DNA of 24,679 nt from positions 1 to 24,679 of IMG/VR virus record IMGVR_UViG_3300032011_000123. The stretch is one strand, 5' to 3'. The notes beneath the pieces are model-generated. The model made no database searches and was not told where the DNA came from. It saw only the letters and a list, made by a program, of their open reading frames with translations. Source of the stretch: a virus. Shown piece after piece: positions 7,809 to 24,640 of the stretch (positions within the stretch are counted from its first letter, which is position 1; the number at the start of each line of letters is the position of its first letter). Position numbers and translations under genes: made by a program.

Positions 7809-8007
7809 TTGCGGTATCTTTTTCACGTTGCTTTTCCTCCCTTTTCATTCTGAAATACATTTTGTAGTATTTCTTTTTCATCTCTGCAAGGTAAGCAGTC
7901 TCTTCTTCATTTTCGGGATAAACCTGAGTAAATCCCCACAGAGCTTCAAGGTGAGTCATTAACCGAAGAACGGTAATAGGATCTTCAGGGTGTGCGTTGT
8001 ACGGCAT
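7783..8007 (-). CDS. Small charged helical protein, 74 residues
   Basis: MPYNAHPEDPITVLRLMTHLEALWGFTQVYP, then a strongly charged helix (EEETAYLAEMKKKYYKMYFR, MKREEKQREK) that may form a coiled coil. It overlaps the end of purC by 23 nt and the start of the primase-helicase by 26 nt. Function unknown; position next to the primase-helicase makes a helicase-loader-like or regulatory role possible but untested. Confidence 0.65.
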   Translation of the reverse strand: MPYNAHPEDPITVLRLMTHLEALWGFTQVYPENEEETAYLAEMKKKYYKMYFRMKREEKQREKDTANETQSSSQ

Positions 8008-8749
8008 CTTCCTGTTCGATCATCAGCTTCCTATCTAACAAGTCAACACAAATCTGTTGGTAAGCATCTAGTAGACGCTGACGTTGTGCCGCTAGTTCAT
8101 TAGTCGCCTTACGGTAGATATCCTTATCGAAGCTTTCATTGGTTCCTTTCTTCCATAGCCTGCAACTATCGGGACTGATTTCATCGGCTACAAGCAGCTC
8201 GCCTGTAGCAGTTGAATATCCAAGTTCAAGTTTGAAGTCAACTAGGTCATAACCAATCTCATCAAACACTCTCTTCAGTACATAGTTAACGTCATGAGCT
8301 ACGGTTGCAAGTTCATTAGGTAGGTTGATGTCATAACCCATTTTAAGGATGCGTCCAGTTGTGAGTAACGGATCATTCTTGTCGTCGTCCTTTAGGAAGA
8401 ACTCAACCAAGGCTGGTGACAGGACAGTACCTTCTTCAATTGTGGTGCCTCTACATAATCCACCCGCTGCCTTGTTACGGACAACGACTTCGATTGGAAT
8501 AATATCCACCTTCTTACAGATGATGGTGTCATTAGTAAGGCGTGTATCAATGTGAGTAGCAATGTTATTCTTCTCCAACTCTTGAAAGAGTAGCCAAGAA
8601 ATATTGCAGGTATATCCACCTTTACCTAAGTAGATCGCTGACTTATCACCATTATTAGCAGTGACAACATCATCGAACTTCAGGCAAATCTTATCAGGTT
8701 GGTAATCCTCATAGATAGATTTAGTCTTTCCTCTAATTAGCCATTTCAT
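7985..8749 (-). CDS. purC: SAICAR synthetase (phosphoribosylaminoimidazole-succinocarboxamide synthase)
   Basis: Catalyses ATP-dependent addition of aspartate to CAIR in de novo purine synthesis, in the cytoplasm. Family signatures: IRGKTKSIY at the N-terminus, IIPIEVVVRNKAAGGLCRG (PIEVVVRN is the SAICAR signature), DLVDFKLELG and VADEISPDSCRLW (the second signature). 254 residues, close to the usual ~240. purC is a known auxiliary metabolic gene of cyanophages, taken to raise purine supply during infection. It sits between the exonuclease and the primase-helicase, in the replication transcript. No key motif is missing, so it is probably functional. Confidence 0.96.
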   Translation of the reverse strand: MKWLIRGKTKSIYEDYQPDKICLKFDDVVTANNGDKSAIYLGKGGYTCNISWLLFQELEKNNIATHIDTRLTNDTIICKKVDIIPIEVVVRNKAAGGLCRGTTIEEGTVLSPALVEFFLKDDDKNDPLLTTGRILKMGYDINLPNELATVAHDVNYVLKRVFDEIGYDLVDFKLELGYSTATGELLVADEISPDSCRLWKKGTNESFDKDIYRKATNELAAQRQRLLDAYQQICVDLLDRKLMIEQEDAVQRTP

Positions 8750-10085: not shown

Positions 10086-10279
10086 CAGAGTTCCTCAGCA
10101 GTCATTTTTTCTACAACTTCTTCAACGATGTCGCTGAATGCACGACGAAGTTCATACTTCAGATCGTCCTTATCTTTCTTCGCTCTAGTTACAGTGATGG
10201 GTGGCAACGTTAGTGTTGCCTCCACTTCCCATAGCCCTAGCTCTCCGTTCTTATGTGTATCTAAGTCAAGTTTAGTCAT
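10085..10279 (-). CDS. Small protein of 64 residues, unknown
   Basis: MTKLDLDTHKNGELGLWEVE, then a TLTLPPITVTRAKKDKDD hinge and a helix DLKYELRRAFSDIVEEVVEK. It overlaps its neighbours by one base at each end (TGATG-type coupling), so it is translated together with the SSB-like protein upstream. No family recognised. Confidence 0.65.
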   Translation of the reverse strand: MTKLDLDTHKNGELGLWEVEATLTLPPITVTRAKKDKDDLKYELRRAFSDIVEEVVEKMTAEEL

Positions 10280-11016
10280 CAGAATTCAGCGTTAGTTTCT
10301 ACTTTTGCTTTTGCTTTAGCGGGCATCACAGTTGATCCACGCTTATCGGTTCCACCAGCAGGCAGTCCCTTTTCATCAGTCCCTTTACCATCAAAGGGAT
10401 CTTTACCTTCAAAGAAATTCGGAAGCCAGATAGTTTCCTTCTGCTTAGTCCATTCCTTTTTAATCTTCTCAGGCACAGCACGAACCTTTGGCAAGATGCT
10501 GTAGCTAGTTTCAAGACCTTGACCTTTACGGGAGATCTTGATTGAGAAGTTTGCTAGACCTTCTTCGGTCCAGGTGTAGTCCTCAACTTCTTGGAGAACT
10601 TCAGTCAGCTGCTCACGCAATGACTTCTGTTCAATGAACAGAACTTCAAGGCGACCACGGGTTGCTGATGTGCCTACCCAAGCAAGGAAGCGACGTGGCT
10701 TAACAAAGCTGCCGTCAATCTTTGGTCGGTCAGGCTTACTCCAGTCAGTCTCACGCGCAATGTCATTAGGCTGACCAGGGTGACTGCGTGTTACTACGTA
10801 TCCGTTAAAGCGTAGATCACCAGTCTTGGCATCTTGTGTTTCAGATGCATATTGCCAGCCAACAATGGCGTGACCTGTTTCGTAGCATCCAAGCAGTCTG
10901 AATTCTTCTGATTCTCCGTCTTTCAGTTGACTAGGTTTGAAGTAAGGTTGAGGTTCTTTCGTTTCAATTTTATCTTTAGCCTCCGTTAATTCTGGAGGTA
11001 GGACTTGTAATGTCAT
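10279..11016 (-). CDS. Putative single-stranded DNA-binding protein, phage type
   Basis: 245 residues. The core (about 40-180) resembles phage OB-fold SSB-like proteins: RFLAWVGTSATRGRLEVLFI, EQKSLREQLTEVLQEVEDYT, then FSIKISRKGQGLETSYSILP, the strand-helix-strand order with a GxGxxT/S loop that I know from phage SSBs. The C-terminus is a Lys/Ala-rich tail ending ETNAEF; a terminal Phe after acidic residues is also found in T7 gp2.5, where it contacts partner proteins. It would coat unwound DNA for the polymerase and primase-helicase. The family match is by pattern only, so a structural or other replication protein cannot be excluded. It heads a run of genes behind a possible promoter region. 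Confidence 0.5.
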   Translation of the reverse strand: MTLQVLPPELTEAKDKIETKEPQPYFKPSQLKDGESEEFRLLGCYETGHAIVGWQYASETQDAKTGDLRFNGYVVTRSHPGQPNDIARETDWSKPDRPKIDGSFVKPRRFLAWVGTSATRGRLEVLFIEQKSLREQLTEVLQEVEDYTWTEEGLANFSIKISRKGQGLETSYSILPKVRAVPEKIKKEWTKQKETIWLPNFFEGKDPFDGKGTDEKGLPAGGTDKRGSTVMPAKAKAKVETNAEF

Positions 11017-12109: not shown

Positions 12110-12259
12110 TTAATCGCTCTTTTTAGATTTTGCGAGTTCCTGCTTGTCTAACTCTGCAATTTCACTTTTAATGTTGCCAGCCATAAAAGAATTGCCGAGA
12201 TGTTCAACAGCTCGCAGTGCTTCTTCAAGTGTTTCACGTTTGTCGTTACTAGGCATCAT
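12110..12259 (-). CDS. Small charged protein of 49 residues, unknown
   Basis: Starts MMPSNDKRETLEEALRAVEH and ends KSKKSD. It is helical and highly charged. The start overlaps the end of thyX by 11 nt and two consecutive ATG codons are in frame (12259 and 12256). Likely a real coupled small gene; nothing indicates its role. Confidence 0.6.
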   Translation of the reverse strand: MMPSNDKRETLEEALRAVEHLGNSFMAGNIKSEIAELDKQELAKSKKSD

Positions 12260-12905
12260 TCTCAGGCCACATAGCGTTTGCAATTGTTGGTAGCTCTTTT
12301 TGTAGTATAGCCAACACTTCTAGTGCAATATTCTGATGCTCTAACTGTGTTCCGTTAGCAGAGCGTAAGTCAACATAATGAAGCCAGCTACGGATAGTAC
12401 CTGACATGTACATCCTTGTTCCAGTATTCAAAGGCAGTACAGAACGAGCACACTCCTTAGCAACTCCTTTCTCAAGCAGTGCTTTATAGAGATCCATTGA
12501 GTGTTTGAAGTGCTCTTCAGTAAGAAGATTCCACTGATCAATGTCAGCTTGACGTAAGTCAGCAATGCTGTTCTGTCTATTCTTTGAATCTTGGCGACGT
12601 AACTGAGGTGTATGTAAGTCAGTCACTTCAGCGTAGCGTTGTGAGAACTCTTGAAAACTAAAGCTACGGTGCCTCAGAATTTGAGGTGCAATAGCCCTAG
12701 TAGTTTGAATCTCCACGCACATTGAAGCCATTTCAAATGGGCTCCAGTGCCTGTGCTTGATTAGATACTTTAATAGTTTCTCACTATCTGGGTTATCTTC
12801 ATTAGCGGGATTAGAAACTCTGGCAATTTTACCGATTAGTTTCTCAGCATCAGGAGTAATCCAGATAAGGCGAGCATTATGAGTGTCGTTTGATATATCA
12901 ATCAT
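12249..12905 (-). CDS. thyX: Flavin-dependent thymidylate synthase ThyX
   Basis: Makes dTMP from dUMP with FAD, NADPH and methylenetetrahydrofolate. 218 residues from ATG 12905 (MIDISNDTHNARL). ThyX signature RHRSFSFQEFS (RHR at 78-80, Ser seven residues on) and QRYAEV; an upstream HRHWSPFEMASMCVEIQTTR and a C-terminal LRSANGTQLEHQNIALEV also fit. The frame is open upstream of 12905 but that part lies inside the preceding small gene. ThyX is usual in cyanophages and many cyanobacteria. With RNR, MazG and PurC it belongs to the nucleotide-supply cluster. Confidence 0.96.
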   Translation of the reverse strand: MIDISNDTHNARLIWITPDAEKLIGKIARVSNPANEDNPDSEKLLKYLIKHRHWSPFEMASMCVEIQTTRAIAPQILRHRSFSFQEFSQRYAEVTDLHTPQLRRQDSKNRQNSIADLRQADIDQWNLLTEEHFKHSMDLYKALLEKGVAKECARSVLPLNTGTRMYMSGTIRSWLHYVDLRSANGTQLEHQNIALEVLAILQKELPTIANAMWPENDA

Positions 12906-13098
12906 TTTCGCACCATCTATAAATGTCGTGTTCGTTATAAGGCTTATCGCAACAGTCGTATTCACCTGGATAATCAGGGTGACCAGCAGCCCAGGAGTCA
13001 CCACCTAAGGCCCTTACTTCTATTTTGCAAAGCTGGTGCTCACTAAGCGTAGAGGTTGGTCCTGAAGCAATTGCTACTACAGCTAACAGCTCAATCAT
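12898..13098 (-). CDS. Small protein with hydrophobic N-terminus, 66 residues
   Basis: MIELLAVVAIASGPTSTLSE looks like a short signal or membrane segment, followed by a Cys-containing domain (CKIEVRALGG, YDCCDKPYNE, YRWCEND; four Cys in total). It may be exported or membrane-attached, with disulphides. Coupled at both ends: its ATG shares a base with the nrdB stop codon and its stop overlaps the thyX start by 8 nt. It is odd to find such a protein in the nucleotide cluster. Function unknown. Confidence 0.6.
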   Translation of the reverse strand: MIELLAVVAIASGPTSTLSEHQLCKIEVRALGGDSWAAGHPDYPGEYDCCDKPYNEHDIYRWCEND

Positions 13099-13832
13099 TA
13101 AGCATATTGGGGTAGGTTTCGTGAATCACTCTCAAAGAACGCTGGCATTCTGGAGGCTCTTGTGTCTGCAAGACCAGCAGCTTTACCAGTTTTGTAGAGA
13201 CTATCGCTGCACTTCATCCAGAAGTTACTGGACAGGTGCTTGTTCTCATTCTCAGCTTGGAGTGGTTCAGTAACCCAACGTACAGTTGCACGTCGGATTG
13301 CATTTAGTGTCTTATCTGATGTAGCACCAACTTCTTTAGCAACTAAAGAATGAGCTGCGACATGGGTCATCTCGTCTCGGCTGATATCTGCCGAGGTTGT
13401 ACGTAGGCCCGTGTCACCAAGGAACCTGAAGATTGGCAGAAGAACGAAGAATACACTTCGTTCGAGAATGGCTGCCTTGAGGACGGGGTGACGGTCCAAT
13501 CCAATCCACGTTTTAGCAATCTTGTCAGCTTCAGCCTGTATTCTTCCAGGGACTTGATGAACATCTGCTGCATAGTTAAGGGCAAGATCATGATTAGTTT
13601 CGTCTTCAATGTTGGATAAGAGCAGCTCTTTACAGCCAGCAGCTTCAGGTAGGTCTCCCTTCATAGCGTCAGTAATAAAATCAGCTACAGGAATCTCAAG
13701 GATTCGTAGGGATAGGGCACGTTGAACAACCTCTTCACCACCAGGGAGAAGGTCTCCCTTAGTGATGGCTACAGGTGTCCAGGTACGCTTGCGTTCGTGA
13801 AGTTGAATATATGGAGTTGCTGCTTTTGTCAT
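13098..13832 (-). CDS. nrdB: Ribonucleotide reductase beta subunit (ferritin-like), short cyanophage type
   Basis: Carries the metal-oxidant cofactor that starts the radical in the alpha subunit. 244 residues, shorter than the ~340-375 usual for NrdB. Ferritin-fold ligands visible: ETNH (E78, H81), E124 in AAILERSVFF and EMTH (E154, H157). In E. coli NrdB the radical Tyr sits four residues after the first ligand His; here that place is Leu85, and the nearest Tyr is 87. So the subunit probably stores the oxidising equivalent differently. Directly downstream of the alpha subunit (24 nt). A published reannotation placed T7-like cyanophage RNR in class I with such a beta subunit; this gene seems the same kind. 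Confidence 0.85.
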   Translation of the reverse strand: MTKAATPYIQLHERKRTWTPVAITKGDLLPGGEEVVQRALSLRILEIPVADFITDAMKGDLPEAAGCKELLLSNIEDETNHDLALNYAADVHQVPGRIQAEADKIAKTWIGLDRHPVLKAAILERSVFFVLLPIFRFLGDTGLRTTSADISRDEMTHVAAHSLVAKEVGATSDKTLNAIRRATVRWVTEPLQAENENKHLSSNFWMKCSDSLYKTGKAAGLADTRASRMPAFFESDSRNLPQYA

Positions 13833-13856: not shown

Positions 13857-15269
13857 TTATTCAGCACATCCAACACACATAGTGGGATCTGAATAATTGG
13901 GTAGGTCAGGGATCTTGTCTGAGTCCTCATCAATCTCATTCATATCGAATAGGTCTCTGAAGTCTTCATCTAAGGCGTTGGATATATCATCTTTGGCTTG
14001 TGTGTTCTCCATTACCTGCAGTGAGTAATACATACTTGTCTGAGGTGAGTTCAGCCAATCTTGGATAAACTCTTCGGAGTAGATAAGAATATCGCTCCAA
14101 GTGTTGAAACTATAGCCATGACAGAGTCCAGTGGACTGGAGCATCAACATGATGCCGTTAGCGACACGGTAGTAATCGTGCCAACCAACCATCTCTGCCG
14201 TTTCTACAAGACCGTAGTCATACTGAGAGATTCCAAAAGTAGAGCTGTCCCTATCAACGATGCGTCCGACCGGCGGTGCGATTTCGGGGGCGGTTGTATA
14301 GCCTGCTCTGTCTTGTTGCGAGTAGGAACATGAAGCAGTTGGTGCAATAGCAAAGGCACGATCCATTTTGGCGGCCTTAGCAACTGAAGCTGCTTGATTG
14401 ATTCCTGCTTGAAGTGCTTTTACGATTTTAACTGCTGCTGGAGTCGCATCAGAATCACCTTCTAGTGCATCAGCAAACTCTGCATACGTTACTTTTTCAA
14501 GTGATAGCAGGTTGGCTAAGCCAAGCATCCCAAGACCTACTTGCCTATCAAAATGAGGATGTAGGTATTGTCCTGTATTCTCAACACCAGTCCTACCATG
14601 AAGCTCGACAAGCTCCGTCATACCATCAACAAATGCCTGTGGTAGATCCTCTACCTTGCCTGCCGCGACGTTTATATGTTGCAACAAGCAAGTGGCTCTT
14701 GATTTAATAAATACTTCCAGACAAACGTTGGCATAAATTCTATTACCGTGCTGGTCATAACGAACCTTCGCTAGCCATACATCACCACGCATAATGCCTC
14801 GCAGCACTGCGTCACGTGTATCAGCATTAGCTACGTCCCACATCTCTTGGTTGAGATTGATGCAACGCTTAGCCCAAGGTAGTTCTGACCTAGGTGCCTC
14901 ACAGAATTCAATAACATCTGCGTGACTTAAGTCAAGATGAAGCACGACAGCCCCATTTTTATATACACCCCCCCTACGTAAAATTTCATTAATCGTTGAA
15001 TAGATTTTTCCAAAACTTACAGGACCTGATGCAACCAAGCCTTTACCGTTTTCTTCACCTTTAGGCCGTAGTTGAGATAAATGGATTGCAACACCTGCTC
15101 CATTTCTTAGGGCGTGTGAAGCAAAGCGCCAGGAGGCTTCGATACCTTCGGCACCCTCCATGCTGTCCATGACGTTAAAAATCGTGCAGCTGACTGGAAG
15201 TCGGCTTTCAGGGTTGTCTAGCCAGCTTTGAACACGGCCAGTACGTGCAATAAAATTGTTAATTGACAT
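13857..15269 (-). CDS. nrdA: Ribonucleotide reductase alpha subunit, compact class I type
   Basis: Reduces ribonucleotides to deoxyribonucleotides for phage DNA. 470 residues, far shorter than E. coli NrdA (~760), with no ATP-cone and so probably no overall activity control by dATP. Catalytic residues are all present: C28 (PVSC) and C194 (SRATC) as the redox pair, N181-x-C183-x-E185 (NVCLE), a C-terminal C465/C468 pair (CVGC), and an adjacent pair Y414-Y415 (SMYYSLQ) as in the class I radical path. Phage proteins of this size are often labelled class II; the Tyr pair and the neighbouring beta gene argue for class I. Start ATG 15269 overlaps the MazG gene by 11 nt. Confidence 0.92.
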   Translation of the reverse strand: MSINNFIARTGRVQSWLDNPESRLPVSCTIFNVMDSMEGAEGIEASWRFASHALRNGAGVAIHLSQLRPKGEENGKGLVASGPVSFGKIYSTINEILRRGGVYKNGAVVLHLDLSHADVIEFCEAPRSELPWAKRCINLNQEMWDVANADTRDAVLRGIMRGDVWLAKVRYDQHGNRIYANVCLEVFIKSRATCLLQHINVAAGKVEDLPQAFVDGMTELVELHGRTGVENTGQYLHPHFDRQVGLGMLGLANLLSLEKVTYAEFADALEGDSDATPAAVKIVKALQAGINQAASVAKAAKMDRAFAIAPTASCSYSQQDRAGYTTAPEIAPPVGRIVDRDSSTFGISQYDYGLVETAEMVGWHDYYRVANGIMLMLQSTGLCHGYSFNTWSDILIYSEEFIQDWLNSPQTSMYYSLQVMENTQAKDDISNALDEDFRDLFDMNEIDEDSDKIPDLPNYSDPTMCVGCAE

Positions 15270-15705
15270 TGAAATCTTCGGGAGGAATTGTGTTAGAAGG
15301 GGCCACTAGATCGTCTAGTGTGGGTGGTTTATAGTTATCACCTTTTAAGACCTTGCCGTCTCTGCGATATATGGGATTACCCTCATCATCTAATTTACTC
15401 ATATTTGATTTATGAATGCGATCTAACGCTTCATCTAAATCAAGGTTATAAGTAGCAGCGAATTGATAACAGACATACACAAGGTCTGCTAATTCTTTTA
15501 GAACTTCAGTTCGATTGTCCTGTGATTGACAATCGCTAGTCAAGATATCGCAGGCATCTAGGAATTCCTTAGCCTCTTCATCGATCAAACTGCATTGCAT
15601 GTTGAACAACTTGAGCCTTAGGAATCCATAGCGTGTGAAGTTATTAAGCAGTGGCTGGTTGAATGCCTTACGGAATTCGATTGCTTGTTTGAATAGGTTT
15701 ATCAT
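15259..15705 (-). CDS. mazG: MazG-like nucleoside triphosphate pyrophosphohydrolase
   Basis: 148 residues from ATG 15705 (MINLFKQAIEFRKAF). All-alpha NTP-PPase signature: LIDEEAKEFLDA (EExxE) followed by VLKELADLVYVCYQFA (ExxD). The C-terminal part (HKSNMSKLDDEG, YRRDGKVLKGDNYKPPTLDD) is the usual tail of the PRA-PH/MazG-like phage type. Cyanophage MazG hydrolyses dNTPs, with preference for dGTP and dCTP in published assays, and its link to ppGpp control is debated. Start fixed by the ATGA overlap with the IF-1 gene; the longer frame runs inside that gene. Confidence 0.85.
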   Translation of the reverse strand: MINLFKQAIEFRKAFNQPLLNNFTRYGFLRLKLFNMQCSLIDEEAKEFLDACDILTSDCQSQDNRTEVLKELADLVYVCYQFAATYNLDLDEALDRIHKSNMSKLDDEGNPIYRRDGKVLKGDNYKPPTLDDLVAPSNTIPPEDFNVN

Positions 15706-15926
15706 TTTTCTCTTAAGGTGATTCGTCCACGTGTTAAGTCGTAGGGTGATACCTCGACTAATACTTTGTCGCCTACAAGCAGTTGTATCTTTCTCGTTAT
15801 TAGCTTGCCTGATGCTCGACAAAGGCAGTGGTGACCTTCAGGTTCGTCAAGTTCAACGTTGAAATATCCGTTTCCCGACTCCTTAAAGATGACGCCTCTA
15901 GCTTCTATTACGTTCTTCTTTGTCAT
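15702..15926 (-). CDS. infA: Translation initiation factor IF-1 homologue
   Basis: 74 residues from ATG 15926 (MTKKNVIEARGVIFKESG), the size of bacterial IF-1 (72). One S1-type OB fold along its whole length: GVIFKESGNGYFNVELDE, then CRASGKLITRKIQLLVGDKV and LVEVSPYDLTRGRITLREK; the last blocks are nearly those of bacterial IF-1 (SGK...GDKV.VE..PYDL.+GRI). IF-1 binds the ribosomal A site with IF-2 and IF-3 and shapes start-codon choice. The insertion HHCLCR in the middle is Cys/His-rich, not usual. Cotranscribed with thioredoxin and MazG (28-nt and 4-nt overlaps). It may replace or modify host IF-1, or act as an RNA chaperone or antiterminator. Confidence 0.88.
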   Translation of the reverse strand: MTKKNVIEARGVIFKESGNGYFNVELDEPEGHHCLCRASGKLITRKIQLLVGDKVLVEVSPYDLTRGRITLREK

Positions 15927-16275
15927 TAGATTGATCAGGGTGAATATTGTCGATGTTCGTTTCGATGTAGGTGTAGTCGCTAATAGTTGAAGGAAGGGAT
16001 TGGATAATCGCCTTCGCTCCAACAACTTTCTCAATTGGTATTTCGCTCCTATCGTTATGAACAACGACCATAGTTGGTGTTAATTCAACACCTAGTTCCT
16101 CACACCAAGCAGTCTGCACTCCCCGTAGGGTTTTCATGTTGTAAAAGGAAATTACATCCTGCTGTCGTGTAGGTAGTTGTCGTATATGTTCGTGCAGATC
16201 TATGCAGGGCTTGCATAGTTCTTGCGTGAAAATAGCAATTGTATATTGCTTCATATTATCAAGCTTGTCTTCCAT
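15898..16275 (-). CDS. Thioredoxin/glutaredoxin-like protein
   Basis: 125 residues (118 if translation begins at ATG 16254, MKQYTIAIFTQELCKPC). Redox motif CKPC in the first strand-loop, cis-Pro segment LTPTMVVV later, both as in thioredoxin; the C-terminal ~30 residues are hydrophilic and probably disordered. The likely task is to reduce the RNR C-terminal cysteines, as RNR lies three genes downstream. T7-type polymerases use host thioredoxin as processivity factor, so a replication role is an alternative. Overlaps neighbours by 17 and 29 nt. Confidence 0.75.
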   Translation of the reverse strand: MEDKLDNMKQYTIAIFTQELCKPCIDLHEHIRQLPTRQQDVISFYNMKTLRGVQTAWCEELGVELTPTMVVVHNDRSEIPIEKVVGAKAIIQSLPSTISDYTYIETNIDNIHPDQSNDKEERNRS

Positions 16276-24110: not shown

Positions 24111-24293
24111 TTAGCGCCAGTCAAAATGGCTCTTGTCTTCAAGTAGGCGGAATTGTTTCAGCCAGAATCTGAAGTCATTTTGATCTTCAATTGATACATG
24201 CCTTCGGTGCTTACCACCGTGCATGAACATAATTCCGATGCCTTCCTCATTAGCGAGGAAGTAAATATTTCTACCTAACTTGACGCCTTTCAT
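24111..24293 (-). CDS. Small protein of 60 residues, unknown
   Basis: MKGVKLGRNIYFLANEEGIG, IMFMHGGKHRRHVSIEDQND, then FRFWLKQFRLLEDKSHFDWR. Basic, aromatic and His-rich. Its start overlaps the end of the RlpA-like gene as ATGA, so it is coupled to it. No family recognised. Confidence 0.6.
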   Translation of the reverse strand: MKGVKLGRNIYFLANEEGIGIMFMHGGKHRRHVSIEDQNDFRFWLKQFRLLEDKSHFDWR

Positions 24294-24640
24294 AGGAACT
24301 CAAAGGTCACAGGTACAACACCTGGATCAATCATTCCTATGGCTTCAGCAGCTCCTCGTGATAGGTCAAGGCCACGTCCAGCAATGTAAGGACCACGGTC
24401 ATTGATACGAACATCAACGCATAGATCATTAATCTCGTTACAGACTTTTAGCCGTGTACCGAAAGGTAATGTCTTATGAGCAGCAGTGATTCCGTGCTGG
24501 TTATAACGTTCCCCATTAGCTGTCATGTTTCCGTGGAAACCAGGGCCATACCAGCTAGCATTTGTTCTAAATACTGCTGTCGCCGCTTGAGCTGGGAGAA
24601 TAGAGCAAAGAATTGGCAAGGCATATAGTAGTTTCTTCAT
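24290..24640 (-). CDS. RlpA-like secreted peptidoglycan enzyme (double-psi beta-barrel)
   Basis: 116 residues with signal peptide MKKLLYALPILCSILPAQA (cleavage after AQA). The mature part is one double-psi beta-barrel: ASWYGPGFHGNMTANGERYN, AAHKTLPFGTRLKV and VDVRINDRGPYIAGRGLDLS. Glu in ANGERY, His in AAHKTL and Asp in INDRGP are the conserved residues of RlpA lytic transglycosylases. There is no SPOR domain. It could cut the host wall at lysis, or modify it at entry; export by the Sec system is unusual for a phage lysin. Preceded by TATAAG and a short AT-rich gap. Confidence 0.85.
   Translation of the reverse strand: MKKLLYALPILCSILPAQAATAVFRTNASWYGPGFHGNMTANGERYNQHGITAAHKTLPFGTRLKVCNEINDLCVDVRINDRGPYIAGRGLDLSRGAAEAIGMIDPGVVPVTFEFL

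Follow-up and report, generated by a model that had tools for sequence, protein, structure and literature searches.

A phage-encoded translation initiation factor IF-1 with replaced decoding-centre contact residues in a lineage of marine cyanophages

Translation initiation factor IF-1 has been reported in huge phages (Al-Shayeb 2020, PMC7162821), and the conserved gene set of the Jug phages includes a translation initiation factor 1A (PMC12363816). A literature search, with most subscription papers outside its reach, found no report of IF-1 in cyanophages. Here we describe an infA-like gene encoding IF-1 on the minus strand of a viral DNA stretch of 24,679 nucleotides (IMG/VR record IMGVR_UViG_3300032011_000123, positions 1 to 24,679), which is referred to in its whole length as the window. 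New in this locus is a cyanophage lineage with IF-1 as a core gene, with kinship to the IF-1 of the host type, and with a replacement of both arginines touching A1492/A1493 which is fixed in the clade. The protein shares with the IF1 of huge phages that it is encoded by a phage, but it belongs to a separate clade, as grouping it with the huge-phage proteins was rejected by the approximately unbiased (AU) test (p 0.002). In addition, arginine 41 is retained in 28 of 31 huge-phage IF1s, and unlike huge phages the cyanophages carry no tRNA genes in the two contigs of relatives scanned end to end (106 and 87 kb). The window itself contains neither tRNAs nor Rfam elements.

The reading frame starts with an ATG at position 15926, terminates with a TGA at 15702–15704, and encodes the protein MTKKNVIEARGVIFKESGNGYFNVELDEPEGHHCLCRASGKLITRKIQLLVGDKVLVEVSPYDLTRGRITLREK. 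Residues 3–72 match the infA equivalog TIGR00008 of NCBIfam with 66.9 bits (cut-off 61.15), and the Pfam IF-1 family PF01176 is matched with 58 bits (cut-off 30.2). Another family of the oligonucleotide/oligosaccharide-binding (OB) fold, RsgA_N, was also found in the Pfam search, with 29.9 bits far under the IF-1 score. Solved bacterial IF-1 structures in the PDB were matched from 2.9e-17. An AlphaFold model, calculated with 21 aligned relatives, reached a predicted local distance difference test (pLDDT) value of 86.7 and yielded a five-stranded OB fold with the strand order of IF-1 and a short helix connecting strand 3 to strand 4. Only IF-1 structures were among the best PDB matches of the model, one of them being E. 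coli IF1 bound to the ribosome (9fco, TMq 0.89). By homology the product is thus a genuine IF-1, and the proposal of a phage-encoded IF-1, made from the window by a sequence-only reading, was borne out by equivalog and Pfam matches, predicted fold, and phylogeny. The latter kept the protein among the IF-1s, together with the infA of picocyanobacteria, rather than placing it with S1 or other small OB proteins. The family phrog_30201, which matches the window protein across its whole length, is labelled "unknown function" in PHROGs, a label which could probably be updated.

In canonical IF-1, lysine 39 and methionine 42 contact G530, arginines 41 and 46 contact A1492/A1493, and histidine 35, tyrosine 60, arginine 64, and arginine 66 face uS12 (PMC10913371). 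Alignment of the window protein with canonical IF-1 showed that the equivalents of K39, Y60, R64, R66, and R70 are retained as K41, Y62, R66, R68, and R72, while the position of H35 is occupied by arginine in both phage and host. The basic residues at positions 41 and 46, however, are absent from all 49 phage copies, in which the loop between strands 3 and 4 follows the pattern [KR]L[IV]TRKI[QH]. Position 41 is arginine in all of 107 other cellular sequences (77 bacterial and 30 cyanobacterial, the bacterial ones having been collected with the phage protein as query and thus not being a random sample), threonine in 37 of 37 host sequences, and isoleucine or valine in 49 of 49 phage sequences. 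Position 46 is arginine or lysine in the same 107 cellular sequences and lysine in the host, which also lacks R41 but retains a basic residue at 46; in the phages it is glutamine or histidine (49/49). Between the replaced positions the phage loop gains two basic residues, R45 and K46 in phage numbering. The expected ribosome-contacting residues are thus mostly kept, with the two equivalents of R41 and R46 as the exception.

The nearest cellular proteins, found by tblastn, are the infA products of Prochlorococcus and Synechococcus with 64–65% identity. Phage and picocyanobacterial proteins formed a joint clade with a support of 100/100 in a careful tree, and the same clade was obtained in a quick tree of 144 rows at a Shimodaira-Hasegawa-like approximate likelihood ratio (SH-aLRT) of 95. 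Grouping of the phage protein with canonical cyanobacterial infA was rejected (AU test p 0.011). Canonical cyanobacterial and bacterial IF-1s resemble the phage protein in fold and in most contact residues; they differ from it in R41 and R/K46, which are replaced in the phage, and in lacking a two-residue insertion. In the phage protein the inserted part amounts to no more than about two residues near E28–P29; the remaining difference in this region is substitution. The motif HHCLCR, which had been taken for an unusual inserted Cys/His element, is therefore mostly substituted rather than inserted sequence and is not specific to the phage: insertion and GHxCLCRA are common to phage IF-1 and the infA of Prochlorococcus and Synechococcus in the alignment, where the host form reads GHQCLCRAAGK. 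Because both features occur in phage and picocyanobacterial proteins, the Cys/His feature is of host type. Phage and host further share GNG[FY] and the loss of R41. They differ in the loop, which is KLTKFRIK in the host and KLITRKIQ in the phage, and the host protein has a Gly/Arg-rich tail, lacks the N-terminal residues before IE, and is encoded next to trxB-trx (three loci; L082 2010–2279, L083, and L084). With this loop, the insertion, and the tail, the picocyanobacterial IF-1 is itself aberrant, and it is the sole copy: IF-1 was found in 198 of 200 genomes of the host order, with one good copy each and about 61 bits in nearly all of those listed. No second infA or prophage copy was detected in the 200 genomes, the single extra match being under the cut-off with 19.9 bits. 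The other cyanobacteria sampled have a canonical IF-1 with about 79–103 bits.

Judged from these alignments and trees, the phage IF-1 and the aberrant single-copy infA of marine picocyanobacteria are of common ancestry. With a fuller sequence set host sequences nested inside the phage clade beside the window, and monophyly of the phage sequences was not rejected (p-AU 0.35). Transfer may have run either way, as the trees rest on about 75 columns and have long stems. That this phage lineage donated the aberrant picocyanobacterial infA, which stands in for the canonical one, appears a long shot; if true, the most abundant phototrophs of the ocean would owe a core translation factor to a virus. 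A joint capture of thioredoxin and infA from the trxB-trx area of the host was also considered and was rejected, as the match of phage thioredoxin to the host thioredoxin domain was not significant (E 0.16).

Homologues with 76–100% identity occur in about 49 further viral contigs, and 255 IF-1-matching stretches were confirmed in IMG/VR. To these came loci sampled independently of IF-1, six via nrdB and, because this bait gave only six, 80 via an unrelated conserved gene of the window (10279–11016). All 40 loci fetched in this way which reach far enough upstream (37 distinct contigs) contain IF-1, which is therefore a core gene of the lineage as sampled. Among 50,697 GenBank-derived phage records, by contrast, tblastn with the IF-1 gave no cyanophage match. 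The earlier remark that IF-1 genes are rare in phages needs qualifying in view of the huge phages, the Jug phages, and the 255 stretches in IMG/VR. The ratio of nonsynonymous to synonymous substitution rates (dN/dS) was about 0.12 in 82 closer phage pairs, synonymous sites being mostly saturated otherwise, which indicates purifying selection on the phage gene. The loop between strands 3 and 4 hardly varies among phages in which most synonymous sites are saturated. Together, low dN/dS and near-invariant loop speak against decay and for a functional protein whose contact has been tuned.

Table 1. Features of the IF-1 locus, with positions in the window.
Feature	Position	Strand	Evidence
IF-1 (infA-like) gene, 74 amino acids	15702–15926	minus	TIGR00008 and PF01176 above cut-off; fold; tree
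Two-residue insertion, approximate place, common with picocyanobacterial infA	15840–15845	minus	alignment
GHHCLCRA segment	15813–15836	minus	alignment; host open reading frames
Loop between strands 3 and 4, KLITRKIQ	15783–15806	minus	at the place of canonical K39-x-R41...R46
Thioredoxin-like gene	15898–16275	minus	PF00085, 24 bits (cut-off 23.5); synteny
IF-1 stop codon and mazG start codon overlapping as ATGA	15702–15705	minus	sequence read directly
MazG-like pyrophosphohydrolase, 148 amino acids	15259–15705	minus	PF01503, phrog_671
Ribonucleotide reductase large subunit (nrdA)	13857–15269	minus	phrog_367, PF02867; 57–64% identity to cyanophage ribonucleotide reductases
Ribonucleotide reductase beta subunit (nrdB)	13098–13832	minus	phrog_6799, 2.5e-94
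FAD-dependent thymidylate synthase ThyX	12249–13004	minus	TIGR02170, 171.8 bits; true start probably further downstream

The IF-1 gene is part of a dense run of genes on a single strand (Table 1). Its ATG is located inside the 3' end of the thioredoxin-like gene with an overlap of 29 nucleotides, and mazG and nrdA overlap by 11 nucleotides. The order trx-IF1-mazG-nrdA-nrdB-thyX-ssb is retained in the IMG/VR relatives which cover the region. The thioredoxin-MazG-ribonucleotide reductase setting proposed earlier is thus real as a same-strand neighbourhood with a linkage conserved in every covering relative; the genes may also share a transcript, as had been assumed. A promoter scan of the region gave fewer matches than shuffled sequences and was uninformative.

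From the identity, predicted fold, kinship, conservation, synteny, selection, and loop replacement described above we infer how the protein may bind the ribosome, when it would act, with which genes it may be co-transcribed, and how the phage would benefit. We consider it probable that it is a functional IF-1 which supplements or competes with host IF-1 during infection, and that its altered loop tunes initiation. It would bind to the A site of the 30S subunit between helix 44 and uS12, together with IF2, IF3, and initiator tRNA, and in doing so supplement or displace host IF-1 on 30S subunits of the infected cell. Ribosomes engaged on phage mRNA would thereby continue to initiate while host gene expression falls. 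The altered loop, with I/V for R41 and Q/H for R46, may change the grip on A1492/A1493 and hence the rate or the stringency of initiation, and the factor would be expressed together with the nucleotide-synthesis genes. Several points weigh against this proposal. Host genomes already possess infA, and the need for a second copy is unexplained. The K39 equivalent is arginine and the R64 equivalent is lysine in some relatives. Both residues contacting A1492/A1493 are replaced, so that normal binding is not to be assumed. As the host IF-1 also lacks R41, the loss of this residue alone does not exclude function. The replacements lower the certainty on the mechanism, not on the homology.

The same replacements, present in all phage copies while the fold and the residues on the uS12 side are retained, would also fit a decoy or antagonist which sits in the 30S A site with altered contacts and, as part of a host shut-off, blocks initiation or tilts it against host mRNAs. 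This is unlikely, however, as an antagonist of all initiation would harm phage translation too, and the host IF-1, presumably functional as the sole copy, likewise does without R41. E. coli IF1 has been proposed to act as an RNA chaperone or as an antiterminator of transcription, and with two decoding-centre contacts lost the phage protein might act off the ribosome as a small OB protein of this kind, and not mainly in initiation; the retained uS12 and C-terminal contact residues and a match reaching the level of the infA equivalog make this improbable. Least credible is the view, put forward in the sequence-only reading, that the factor exists to aid initiation on phage mRNAs without ribosome-binding sites. 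The IF-1 gene does start inside trx and mazG by an ATGA overlap, and IF-1 phages have a weak Shine-Dalgarno signal, with the core 4-mer before 22–25% of the genes versus 14–15% in shuffled sequences, in a comparison of few genomes whose genes were called crudely from the first ATG. Two T7-like cyanophages, however, show an equal or weaker signal (S-RIP2 15% observed versus 14% shuffled, 9515-10a 13% versus 10%), and no cyanophage of the 50,697-record set has IF-1. The weak signal is thus not specific to IF-1 phages, and this view found no support.

Regarding the virus, psbA, talC, hli, purC, ThyX, and the cyanophage-type ribonucleotide reductase identify it as a marine cyanophage. The DNA polymerase is split in the window, polymerase and exonuclease reading frames (3–824 and 1089–1619) matching successive parts of phrog_17. 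Matches to NblA and an integrase were found in all four long relatives (80–106 kb), and each of the two reached the family cut-off in half of them; in every one of these relatives (G004–G007) the NblA-like and tyrosine-integrase-like genes, some just under the cut-off, are located close together. An uncultivated cyanophage lineage with split polymerase, NblA, and integrase was reportedly described by Flores-Uribe et al. in 2019, and the present phages resemble it in the split polymerase of the window and in the NblA and integrase of the relatives. They probably belong to this lineage, an assignment to be taken as a lead. The name BAC21E04 cyanophages has been used for the lineage (PMC9983427).

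Some further observations concern the same genomes. The gene at 10279–11016 encodes a protein of 245 amino acids which is 78–93% conserved across the lineage and to which Pfam, PHROGs, and the 50,697 phage records gave no match; it is a good lineage marker. The replication region contains a full-length purC encoding SAICAR synthetase (7985–8749, phrog_1112), and an RlpA-like double-psi beta-barrel (DPBB) lytic transglycosylase with a signal-like N-terminus is encoded near psbA (24290–24640). In the 106-kb relative (G004; L320 18196–18960, minus strand) a sigma-70-type factor containing regions 2, 3, and 4 is encoded, and host transcription may therefore be a further target of the lineage.

While phage translation factors have so far been reported mainly from huge phages, IF-1 is found here as a core gene of mid-sized marine cyanophages. 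The finding also draws attention to the sole, odd IF-1 of the host, which lacks an arginine found in all other cellular IF-1s compared. The change at the decoding-centre contact of the phage IF-1 suggests that the virus may tune protein synthesis during infection, and this fixed change gives a small entry point for testing how phages may redirect initiation in the most abundant phototrophs.
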